Below, one piece after another: positions 1-10,206 of a stretch of 53,889 nt of DNA. The position numbers were made by a program, and so were the translations under genes. Positions within the stretch are counted from its first letter, which is position 1. Every line of letters starts with the position of its first letter. Source of the DNA: Parcubacteria group bacterium ADurb.Bin159 (GTDB lineage: Bacteria; Patescibacteriota; Patescibacteriia; UBA2591; MWDC01). Location: assembly GCA_002070355.1 (NCBI GenBank), contig MWDC01000004.1, positions 1-53,889 on the forward strand, given 5' to 3'. Below the pieces are notes generated by a model. The model had not been told where the DNA came from, did no database searches, and saw only the letters and a list, made by a program, of their open reading frames with translations.

Positions 1-657
1 TTCTAAATCTTGAAATTCTTTAGCTGTGGCTAATAACGCTTTTATTCCTTTTATAAAAATCTTCTCGTCTAATATACCTGAACCAATATGCTGATGAAGG
101 CCAATTATTTTCAAATTATATTGTCGGGCTATACTTTTTATTTTTTCTATTTCGGAAAAATAAATTCCAAATTTTGATTGAGATCCGCCGGTTATACAAT
201 GATAATGGCATCCCGCCCCAATACCTTGATTTATTCTTACTCCTATTTTTCCTCCAGGATTAAATTGGCTATATTTTTTTAATTGAGTGAACGAATCTAT
301 ATTTATTAATATTTTGTTTTTTATTAAAAATTTTAATTCTTCATCGGTTATATTGTCGCAAGTATATATCATTTCGCAAGATTTAAAGCCTGCCTTAAAT
401 CCCATTAAAATCTCTCCAGGACTGACCACCTCTAATTTAGCTCCCTCTCTTCTTAATATCTTTAAAATTTCTAAATTTGTATTCGCCTTACAAGAATAAT
501 ATAATTTTAATTTGTTATACCGGATATTTTTAGCTAAATCCATATATCTTTCTTTTATTTTATCTTCTTCATAAACATAAAGAGGGCTTCCGTACTTTTT
601 TATCAATTCGTCAGCCCTTATTTCGCCTAAAAATAATTTGTTATTTATGATACGCAT
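1..657 (-). CDS. lysA: Diaminopimelate decarboxylase, N-terminal 219 codons (runs off the window)
   Basis: The minus strand is open from ATG at 657 to the window edge, so the C-terminal half lies outside. The product would decarboxylate meso-diaminopimelate to lysine using PLP. The fold-type III alanine-racemase-like barrel is recognisable: YSCKANTN near residue 60 carries the PLP lysine, followed by LEVVSPGE, a SKFGI segment and HQHIGSG near residue 190. The 5' end is duplicated in the relic at 1909-2064. No Shine-Dalgarno or clear -10 box precedes this ATG, whereas the relic keeps a good -10 box. Family assignment is secure; whether the missing half is intact cannot be seen. Confidence 0.9.
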   Translation of the reverse strand, partial: MRIINNKLFLGEIRADELIKKYGSPLYVYEEDKIKERYMDLAKNIRYNKLKLYYSCKANTNLEILKILRREGAKLEVVSPGEILMGFKAGFKSCEMIYTCDNITDEELKFLIKNKILINIDSFTQLKKYSQFNPGGKIGVRINQGIGAGCHYHCITGGSQSKFGIYFSEIEKIKSIARQYNLKIIGLHQHIGSGILDEKIFIKGIKALLATAKEFQDLE

Positions 658-787
658 AAAACATCAATTACTATTAAACGCTCAGGCGAGCAAAAAGGAA
701 GGGGGTTGAGGGGGGAGGAATTTTTGTCTGCCCTCGCTTCCCGCCATCGTCGAATTTTGTGCCAACGAAGTTAGCGCGCTACCTGAT
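658..787. other. Spacer with a G-rich stretch, no gene seen
   Basis: These 130 bases separate lysA from the membrane-protein gene. The segment around 690-770 is far more GC-rich than its surroundings, with two G runs on the plus strand near 700-720 followed by a C-rich part. No ORF, tRNA or clear terminator was recognised. The composition suggests recently acquired or decayed DNA. Confidence 0.4.
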
Positions 788-1135
788 TTATAAAATTATC
801 AATCCGAAAATTATTGATATAATATTCGCGACCAAAGACGCAGTAAATGCTCTAGAGAATTTTAATTCTAGAAATTGATTATAAATAATTGCTTCGGTAA
901 ATACAATTAAAATCTCACCAAGATAAATATACAGACCCCGGCTAGAAATGTAGATTGGAAGAATAAACCAAAAATATGGCAGAGTCAATGTGGAAGCGAT
1001 AAATCCCGCAAAAACAATTTTAAAAATTTTTATTTCTTTTTGTTTGAATAGATATTTTACAAGAAAAAGAACAAGCAGAATTTCAATAATCAGCGTCAAT
1101 AATAAAGAGAGAAAAAATTTCTGCTCATAAAGCAT
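788..1135 (-). CDS. Small integral membrane protein, function unknown
   Basis: The protein has 115 residues and is almost entirely hydrophobic, with about four membrane-spanning segments separated by short charged turns (for example KYLFKQKEIKIFK) and a hydrophobic C terminus. The ATG at 1135 is preferred. An in-frame TTG at 1153 would overlap the upstream secreted-protein gene by 10 bp and lies directly on its GGAAGAGG, leaving little room for ribosome binding. The stop of the upstream gene is just 8 bp before this ATG, so the two genes almost certainly share one transcript. No catalytic motif was seen and no family name is offered. Confidence 0.6.
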   Translation of the reverse strand: MLYEQKFFLSLLLTLIIEILLVLFLVKYLFKQKEIKIFKIVFAGFIASTLTLPYFWFILPIYISSRGLYIYLGEILIVFTEAIIYNQFLELKFSRAFTASLVANIISIIFGLIIL

Positions 1136-1143
1136 AAATGATT

Positions 1144-1821
1144 TTATTGACAACCTCTTCCAAACAAATTTCTAAAAAAACAGATAATGGTTTGCCAAAA
1201 TCCTATTTTTACAGGTGTCGGCGAAGGGGTTGGCGGAATATTTGGTTGCTCGTTTGGTATAGGAGTAATTTGGGATGGAGGGTTCGGTGTCGGGGTAATC
1301 TGTTGATTATTTTGATTATTGGGTTCATTGTTTTTTAGTGGATTTGCAAAAGTTTCAACTTTCATCGGGGTACCGTCATTATATTCTGATATTTGTTTAG
1401 ATTTATATAAAATCAATTTTCCATCAGAAAACCCAGCAATGGAATATTCTATATTTTCTTTAACCAACGGATTGCTTCGATCAACATATCCGCCATAGGT
1501 CTCAATATCATCCAATAGTAAATTGTTTGGATCTATTATATTGGATTTATCTTTCGTATTCCAATAAATTTTCAGTGAATTAAACTTATATCCTTTTGTC
1601 CAACACTCGTTATTCTTAATTTGGTAAGTCTCGTAATTTTGAACCATTGGACCAGTGTAGTATCCAATTAAAACAATATCTGGAAATTCGTTCAGGTTTA
1701 CAATTTTTACGCATCTATTAAATGAATGAGAATTAGGTGGGATTACATCCGCTGAAACAGTTGACGAAAAAAGAAATACAAAAGCTAATAAAGACAGGGT
1801 GTAGAAAATTATTTTTTTCAT
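1144..1821 (-). CDS. Secreted Pro/Thr/Gln-rich protein, function unknown
   Basis: The 225-residue product begins with a classic signal peptide (MKKII, a hydrophobic core, then VSADVIPP near residue 25). A globular part of about 120 residues follows, containing CVKIVNLNEFPDIVLIGY and Cys residues that could form a disulfide. A low-complexity Asn/Gln then Pro/Thr linker occupies about residues 165-205. The short hydrophobic C terminus (GFWQTIICFFRNLFGRGCQ) could anchor it to the membrane. It is paired with the membrane protein after it. The upstream DNA carries a TATAAT within an inverted repeat (1853-1878). No known enzyme family was recognised; an envelope or surface role is an inference from export and linker. 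Confidence 0.7.
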   Translation of the reverse strand: MKKIIFYTLSLLAFVFLFSSTVSADVIPPNSHSFNRCVKIVNLNEFPDIVLIGYYTGPMVQNYETYQIKNNECWTKGYKFNSLKIYWNTKDKSNIIDPNNLLLDDIETYGGYVDRSNPLVKENIEYSIAGFSDGKLILYKSKQISEYNDGTPMKVETFANPLKNNEPNNQNNQQITPTPNPPSQITPIPNEQPNIPPTPSPTPVKIGFWQTIICFFRNLFGRGCQ

Positions 1822-1848
1822 AGGTTTTTGTTGTTTAACTATTTTTTA

Positions 1849-1878
1849 TTATAGCAGAAATCCGATTTCATTTCTGCT
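1849..1878 (-). promoter_or_regulatory. Putative promoter -10 with adjacent inverted repeat
   Basis: Read on the minus strand, TATAAT lies about 27 bp before the ATG at 1821. Immediately upstream are inverted arms AGCAGAAAT and ATTTCTGCT separated by 8 bp (1853-1878). The arms would overlap the spacer and -35 region, which suits an operator or an RNA hairpin. The -35 itself is weak. Confidence 0.4.
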
Positions 1879-1908
1879 TTATTAATAAAACGACTTTGGT
1901 TTATTTTA

Positions 1909-2064
1909 TTAAATCTTCAAAGGAACGCCGACTTCCCCAAAATCAATAAATTCTAAATCTTAAAATTCTTTAGCTGTGGCCAATAACGCTTTTATCCCGT
2001 ACTTTTTTATCAATTCGTCAGCCCTTATTTCGCCTAAAAATAATTTGTTATTCCTAACTCGCAT
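1909..2064 (-). pseudogene. Internally deleted lysA relic
   Basis: Codons 1-23 of lysA from ATG at 2064 are fused in frame to codons about 204-216, removing about 181 codons. A TAA at 1960-1962 then replaces the Gln codon. Past the stop the sequence still reads LEFIDFG followed by GVP, matching what lysA should encode beyond the window edge (FIDFGGG-type motif), and ends by 1909. Bases 1997-2052 are identical to 590-645 of the intact gene, and 1951-1994 differ from 1-44 at two positions, so the duplication is recent or maintained by gene conversion. Fusion occurs at a shared GG. Confidence 0.85.
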
Positions 2065-2072
2065 AAAATAAT

Positions 2073-2109
2073 ATTATAATTTTTAAATTCTTCTAAAATA
2101 TATTTTAGA
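2073..2109 (-). promoter_or_regulatory. Putative promoter with 18-bp palindrome, in front of the lysA relic
   Basis: On the minus strand TATAAT (2078-2073) is followed by 8 bases and then the relic ATG, the spacing expected for a leaderless transcript. Over the -35 region lies a perfect 18-bp palindrome, TCTAAAATATATTTTAGA (2092-2109), a plausible operator. No factor is known; the site could be the ancestral lysA control region. Confidence 0.4.
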
Positions 2110-2139
2110 GAAAATATTTATATTTGTCAAACATAGTAT

Positions 2140-3369
2140 CTAATTAAAATGTTTAATTTTTAAAACCTGTTTATGAGAAAATTTTAAAGCGAAACGATGC
2201 GCCTCATCTCTTACTCTTTGCAAAAGAGATTTAGAGGCAATAATTAGATTCTCCATATTTTTACTTGTTCCCTTAAAAATCAATTCGTCTTTTTTGTCTT
2301 TACCTTTTGATAAACCCACTACGGGAATAAAAACGCGCGCTTTTTTTAATACCTCATATACCCCATTTACCTGTCCTCTGCCCCCATCAATTAAAAATAA
2401 ATTGGGCAACGGCCATTCTTTATGCCTCAACCTTCGAGATATAACTTCTTCCAGCGCCCCTACATCATCTTTGGGTTTGGCTTTTTTAATTTTAAAAATA
2501 CGATATTCACTTTTTATTGGTTCATTATTCTTAAAAACAACCATTGAACCGTATGCTCCTTCACCGGCAAAATGACTAATATCGTACCCCTCTATTTTTA
2601 ATGTCTTGGGGAAAACATCTCCCCTGAGATTGTCTTTGGTAATCAAAAAACTATCTTGTATTTGATTCAAAAGTCTTATCTTTTCTGGGTAATCTTTTTG
2701 TATTTTTTTTATTAATCCTTTCTTTTTTCCTTCTAAAAATAAAATAATGTTTTTAATAATATCTTGATAATCTTTTTTATTGATTTTATTTATACAGGCT
2801 CCGGGACATAAATTAATTTGATAATAAAAACAAGGCCTGCCTGATTGGGGAAAAGTGCAATAAGGAAAAATTCGACGAACTAAAGCTAACATTTTCTTAA
2901 CTGTGGTATAACTTTGATATGGCCCAAAAATATAAAAATTATCTGTTGGATATTTTTTTAATTGTTGTCCTCGAACAATAATCGGGTAAGGAAAATCAGT
3001 ATTTTTAAAATGAGGAATAATAATATAAACAAAAGAACGATTATCCTTTTCCTTAACATTATAAATAGGCCAATATTTTTTAATTAAATTTGCTTCCAAA
3101 ACAAGAGCTTCTAAAACTGAATCGGTTTTGATATATTCAATTTTATTCGCTTGGCTCAAAAGATTTTTTATCTTAGGATTTTTTTGGCTGAAATAACTGC
3201 TTACTCTTTTTTTTAAAATAGCTGCCTTGCCCACATAAAGCACTTTTTCATCTTTTTTAAAAAGATAAACCCCCGGAGCAAGAGGAAGGCGGAGGGTCAG
3301 ACCCCCAAAATTGACTCCTTGAAAGCCTTTATTCATGCGGGTTTGCGAGTGATTTTTTGAAAATGACAT
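2140..3369 (-). CDS. uvrC: UvrC-type nuclease, shortened
   Basis: UvrC makes the dual incisions of nucleotide excision repair. The GIY-YIG nuclease domain starts at residue 28 (LPLAPGVYLF, then VLYVGKA). The RNase H-like second nuclease starts near 259 with GYDISH (Asp 263), LIDGGRGQ (Asp 328) and DEAHRF (His about 391). At 409 residues it is about 200 shorter than usual: the UVR motif that binds UvrB and the C-terminal HhH pair are absent. Residues 1-27 are encoded by the dispersed repeat at 3294-3380, so the element supplies the start codon. It is the last gene of a uvrB-uvrA-uvrC run. Confidence 0.9.
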   Translation of the reverse strand: MSFSKNHSQTRMNKGFQGVNFGGLTLRLPLAPGVYLFKKDEKVLYVGKAAILKKRVSSYFSQKNPKIKNLLSQANKIEYIKTDSVLEALVLEANLIKKYWPIYNVKEKDNRSFVYIIIPHFKNTDFPYPIIVRGQQLKKYPTDNFYIFGPYQSYTTVKKMLALVRRIFPYCTFPQSGRPCFYYQINLCPGACINKINKKDYQDIIKNIILFLEGKKKGLIKKIQKDYPEKIRLLNQIQDSFLITKDNLRGDVFPKTLKIEGYDISHFAGEGAYGSMVVFKNNEPIKSEYRIFKIKKAKPKDDVGALEEVISRRLRHKEWPLPNLFLIDGGRGQVNGVYEVLKKARVFIPVVGLSKGKDKKDELIFKGTSKNMENLIIASKSLLQRVRDEAHRFALKFSHKQVLKIKHFN

Positions 3370-10047: not shown

Positions 10048-10121
10048 TGGTGGACCCGCGGGGAGTCGCACCCCGGACTCCTCCATGCCATGGAGGCATT
10101 TTACTGCTATACTACGGGCCC
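10048..10121 (-). tRNA. tRNA-Ala (GGC), CCA encoded
   Basis: Acceptor arms GGGCCCG and CGGGTCC pair with G3-U70, the alanine identity pair. The anticodon stem CCTCC/GGAGG closes the loop ATGGCAT (anticodon GGC), and the T stem CGGGG/CCCCG is perfect. A73 and CCA are encoded. Unusual: the T loop is TGCGACT (G at position 55), the D loop AGCAGTA has A at position 18, and the D stem is weak. It lies 2 nt after tRNA-Leu. Confidence 0.88.
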
Positions 10122-10123
10122 AA

Positions 10124-10206
10124 TGCCCAAGGCGGGAGTCGAACCCGCATGCTCAAATGAGCACAGCTCCTCAAGCTGCCGCGTGTACCTGTTTCGCCAC
10201 TTGGGC
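10124..10206 (-). tRNA. tRNA-Leu (GAG)
   Basis: The acceptor stem GCCCAAG/CTTGGGC is perfect. The anticodon loop TTGAGGA gives GAG. The long variable arm TGCTCA-TT-TGAGCA is that of a class II tRNA, the T loop is a standard TTCGACT, and the D loop holds GG. CCA is not encoded, unlike the adjacent tRNA-Ala, so CCA addition is required. Confidence 0.95.

Follow-up and report, generated by a model that had tools for sequence, protein, structure and literature searches.

The direct repeats in this contig look like the scar of one past insertion that partly duplicated lysA, the gene for diaminopimelate decarboxylase, and not like a working on/off switch. The window, the whole 53889-bp stretch of DNA analysed, is the entire contig C4 and terminates inside lysA. 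On the minus strand the order of features is uvrC, a lysA relic, gene A, gene B, a GC-rich hairpin element, and a displaced lysA (Table 1). The relic carries a native-type start and a promoter-like site; the GC-rich element is the end of a cassette found in many other genomes. The islet, wedged between the two lysA pieces, is a truncated cassette, because only its 3' end has been kept.

Table 1. Features of the lysA region (window positions)
Feature	Position	Strand	Remarks
lysA (diaminopimelate decarboxylase), first 219 codons	1..657	-	Runs off contig end
Direct repeat, copy 1	590..645	-	Within displaced lysA, codons 5-23
Altered start of displaced lysA	644..660	-	TTTATG-CGTAT-CATAAA, perfect inverted repeat, read from sequence
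Double-hairpin cassette end, 3' type	679..782	-	104 bp; 98.5 bits with model R1, which includes this copy
Islet gene B	788..1153	-	121 aa, hydrophobic protein; overlaps gene A
Islet gene A	1144..1821	-	225 aa with signal peptide; two other genomes of the class have weak homologues
9-bp hairpin	1853..1878	.	Terminator-like on + strand; between gene A and relic
lysA relic	~1908..2064	-	Codons 1-23 fused in frame to codons ~206-235, then stops
Second relic block	1951..1998	-	45/48 identical to window 1-48
Direct repeat, copy 2	1997..2052	-	Within lysA relic, 56/56 identical to copy 1
Sigma-70-like promoter	2102..2130	-	TTGACA-17-TAAAAT, 11/12 consensus positions; upstream of relic
uvrC	2140..3369	-	Upstream neighbour of relic

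Direct repeats and in silico excision

The preliminary description had reported two identical segments spaced 1407 bp apart, and this was confirmed for all 56 bp, a match expected by chance about 1e-23 times in 5 kb. This core is the longest exact match within a repeat family, D1, that pairs 590-661 with 1997-2068 at the same spacing. The flanks of the core have diverged, with 5 mismatches in the 16 bp on one side, clustered in codons 2-4, and 3 in 48 on the other, where the second block of the repeat lies. At the neighbouring mismatch rate, the chance of finding no mismatch in the core is about 0.03. An identical core between diverged flanks is the expected trace of a crossover or conversion tract, and is suggestive of one.

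Removal of 646-2052 in silico deleted exactly 1407 bp, as had been predicted, and produced an in-frame lysA beginning MRVRNNKLFLGEIRADELIKKYGSPLYV (MRVRNN) behind the promoter of the relic. The product had been described as an intact lysA behind that promoter; the in-frame start and the link to the promoter were reproduced in silico, but only 219 of about 404 codons are visible. The geometry of the proposed excision is correct, and equal recombination would put lysA back behind the promoter of the relic.

The two copies of lysA

The relic begins with ATGCGAGTTAGGAA, which resembles the lysA start of the same-genus genome (ATGCGAGTTAAAAA), and its two parts are fused at a TTCC microhomology. 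The displaced lysA starts with ATGCGTATCATAAA, unlike the same-genus start; this altered start could be the product of one template-switch mutation, with which its inverted repeat is compatible. A -10 box had been noted at the relic, with nothing comparable just upstream of the present lysA start, and both observations held. The box lies beside the ATG, but the convincing feature is the -35/-10 pair and not the -10 alone.

The visible half of the displaced lysA has 65% identity to the same-genus protein. Because dN is 0.24 and dS 1.77 between these two copies, we conclude that the visible part is under purifying selection. The C-terminal half was not found in a search of the genome assembly. 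The RNA between gene B and lysA had a fold no more stable than those of shuffled sequences (z -0.91), and therefore we claim no terminator there.

Islet genes

The product of gene A looks secreted. A search of the class with gene A gave three weak matches, two of them convincing, and in a search of the order the window was the sole match. A similar overlapping A-B-like pair is present in the genome G132. Neither gene had a significant match in Pfam or NCBIfam.

The islet edge is a cassette end

The GC-rich element directly follows the gene B stop and ends about 20 nt before the displaced lysA start. The inner hairpin behind the gene B stop is of the GTGCCAAC/GTTAGC type and is oriented in the direction of the cargo, as in a 3'-type end. 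The element is cut where the lysA leader begins, and its outer module is absent. For an inverted 5'-type partner, a search with filters off gave no second significant match in 12 kb, and no partner end was found to the right of gene A. No tRNA gene lies near lysA, the only ones in the window being at 10048-10206. Rfam had no match for the islet or the cassette ends, and returned only tRNAs and one group I intron nearby. The segment 7813-7860 gave a weak B-module match that was rejected; it is a hairpin between uvrB and mnmA. That hairpin is strong (z -4.8 as DNA), and its Rfam scores are far below the cut-off.

The GC-rich stretch recurs elsewhere in its own genome, and 11 of 26 genomes in the order contain it. 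Model R1 was built from ten copies, the window copy among them, and the relatives were found independently by BLAST. The ten aligned copies form two hairpins with paired changes on both sides; in this alignment there were 12 paired-change cells vs 4.6 in shuffles, and 91.9% of cells were paired vs 40-59% for slid versions. Matches to R1 were found in 90 of the 381 genomes sampled in the class and in 47 of the 380 in the phylum sample, and many of them form inverted pairs with a spacing of roughly 1 to 8 kb.

Such pairs were compared in 20 fetched paired loci, the C35 contig, and loci fetched earlier. All 15 pairs of the recognisable main type had one ATT-type and one GC-type inner hairpin, classes that were assigned by eye after the data had been seen and from which six more divergent pairs deviate. 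The predicted cargo genes all run from the ATT-type to the GC-type end in 14 of these pairs; the fifteenth, the restriction-modification pair on C35, has mixed cargo directions. By this by-eye classification, the unlike inner hairpins appear to mark the 5' and 3' ends of the cargo in the 15 recognisable pairs.

Cassettes with inverted hairpin ends were seen at L018, L039, and L098-L110, and are common to distant families of the phylum. The one at L018 (G000:C35), in the same genome as the window, has a restriction-modification operon between its inverted ends and an N-terminal resolvase fragment at the contig end. Among ten scanned cargo proteins, nine matched PADLOC models, mostly for methyltransferases; these ten were picked for their defence-like look, a biased choice, and other cargo exists. 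Within that biased choice, restriction genes are frequent cargo of the hairpin-ended cassettes. Two further loci had unusual arrangements. At L040 8660-9481 (G012), module A alone lies behind two consecutive genes and adjoins an ORF fragment resembling a serine recombinase. At L099 1740-2063, a group I intron match directly precedes a cassette arm, apparently inside a tRNA gene.

Serine recombinases and tRNA genes at related loci

Complete large serine recombinases adjoin the cassette arms at six loci (L098, L103, L107, L110, L114, and L115). Resolvase, Recombinase, and zinc-ribbon domains were found in all four of the complete recombinases scanned, and a Resolvase domain in the fragment at the C35 contig end, which is N-terminal only. 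Each of the six complete recombinase genes has a tRNA gene (Ser, Arg, Ala, Gly, Glu, or Met) at its 3' end. The recombinase ORF ends at or inside the tRNA gene, and another inverted repeat flanks the recombinase in several loci. At L106 and L039 a tRNA gene adjoins the arm without a recombinase.

On balance we favour the view that an undescribed system of mobile cassettes exists in these bacteria, which are probably Patescibacteria, and that the islet is a fragment of it. The cassettes of that system would hold cargo operons between inverted hairpin arms, with unlike inner hairpins marking cargo start and end; a large serine recombinase would bring them to tRNA 3' ends, and occasionally one would become trapped at another site, as in this duplicated lysA, whose promoter it would have displaced. 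A literature search gave no account of such cassettes, weak evidence, as its scope left out most subscription papers and all preprints.

A scar or a switch

The window has two direct copies of one gene segment, one of them degenerate, with a native flank on the relic and a foreign flank, the dispersed cassette end, on the displaced copy. The native-type start and the promoter are found at the relic and not at the displaced copy; the ancestor was therefore probably the deleted form, and the predicted deletion product would most simply represent that ancestral state. No genome seen in the order has uvrC beside lysA. The only same-genus genome has lysA elsewhere, divergent from a gene resembling that for valyl-tRNA synthetase, and had no uvrC match. 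Among the named genomes scanned, no lysA was closer than the 65% of the same-genus one, from isolate AUK078.

Recombination between direct repeats is predicted to cause irreversible loss of the circle between them. The preliminary description had suggested that the locus may switch between two states. In such a switch, reversible or regulated excision of a 1407-bp circle would turn lysA on and off; the excision product would be correct and linked to the promoter, but one-way loss is expected here, with no recombinase recognisable in the islet (Pfam and NCBIfam on genes A and B), no match to the PF07508 recombinase in its own genome (C35 has only the N-terminal resolvase fragment), a decayed cassette end, no route for re-entry, and no relative found with either state, and we consider such a switch very improbable.

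Origin of the arrangement

Insertion with partial duplication of lysA, most likely by one Campbell-like crossover in the lysA 5' end, is the best explanation available, and we hold it with even confidence. It is favoured because of the anatomy of the repeat and relic, with a native-type start and a good promoter at the relic only; because the islet edge is a dispersed cassette end that lacks its outer module and has no partner in 12 kb; and because a perfect core lies between diverged flanks next to a visible lysA that is constrained.

By this explanation, lysA would originally have lain directly after uvrC with its own promoter, a state reconstructed from one same-genus start sequence. The incoming DNA would have carried a lysA piece together with genes A and B and the truncated cassette end of 3' type, and a single crossover within the 5' end of lysA would most likely have joined it. 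A partial lysA would thereby have been left with the native promoter and start, and would then have decayed, losing 182 codons in a microhomology deletion and gaining stop codons. The lysA further downstream would have kept its body, but with a new upstream region and changes in codons 2-4. The duplicated stretch would be seen today as the 56-bp repeat, which the crossover may have homogenised. Deletion of the islet by RecA or slippage could occur at a low rate and regenerate the ancestral gene, but re-insertion would not be possible. Today's lysA may be expressed by read-through.

Nearly identical scars would be left by a crossover, by break repair, or by tandem duplication plus insertion; we rank a single crossover through lysA first and tandem duplication plus insertion second. 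In the latter, an ordinary tandem duplication of lysA was followed by decay of the upstream copy, with the cassette either already downstream or inserted later between the copies. Common types of mutation would explain both relic and repeat, the TTCC microhomology deletion being of such a kind, but separate events are needed for the islet, and one edge of the duplication must fall just before the ATG, at the point where the cassette end is cut as well. Had the cassette been downstream already, lysA should be followed by another copy of A-B; none was found in the genome, although the contig stops before that region. This origin is possible, and we regard it as doubtful.

An assembly or strain chimera, with relic and islet from one molecule or strain and displaced lysA from another, is unlikely. 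The repeat lies 590 bp from the contig end and lysA lacks its other half, as a chimera might leave them, but a false join needs a shared word. When 560-820 was compared with other pieces of the same genome, the longest exact match, the 56-bp repeat aside, was 17 bp, and the sequence reads through 646-788 without a shared word. Site-specific integration, in which the 56-bp core is an attachment site and the element brought a mimic of the gene start, would account for the identical core, diverged flanks, and new start, as in elements integrating into gene 5' ends; the islet has no integrase, however, and the recombinases of the cassette family are at tRNA genes, none of which is near lysA, so that this origin is highly unlikely.

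Relation to known systems

The lysA arrangement resembles a Campbell-type insertion with partial duplication in that a piece of the gene lies on both sides of the inserted DNA, the promoter-bearing copy is truncated, the other keeps the body, and deletion restores the ancestor. It differs in the edge of the insert, which is a truncated cassette end, and in the heavy decay of the truncated copy.

The related loci resemble SCCmec-type (ccr) islands and tRNA-integrating elements, in that inverted-ended cargo, often restriction-modification, lies beside a large serine recombinase gene extending into the 3' end of a tRNA gene. Unlike those islands, the cassettes have inverted arms of roughly 100-250 bp, with covarying hairpins and unlike inner hairpins at the cargo ends, and the islet has a single end and no recombinase. 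Integron cassettes likewise have a structured element (attC) immediately after the cargo stop codon, but the paired ends of the related loci are inverted and not direct, and the linked enzyme is a serine recombinase and not the tyrosine recombinase IntI. REP/BIME repeats are also dispersed GC-rich intergenic hairpins in AT-rich genomes, whereas the cassette ends have few copies per genome, often flank cargo in pairs, and are 80-95% alike between families.

Taken alone, the lysA arrangement is a modest example, in a reduced genome, of an insertion that duplicated a gene and disconnected it. The cassette end has wider implications, pointing to a low-copy, structured mobile unit common to distant families of ultra-small bacteria. 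The system often carries restriction-modification genes, and its recombinase and tRNA target are directly testable. It would give a concrete route for gene trade among streamlined cells.
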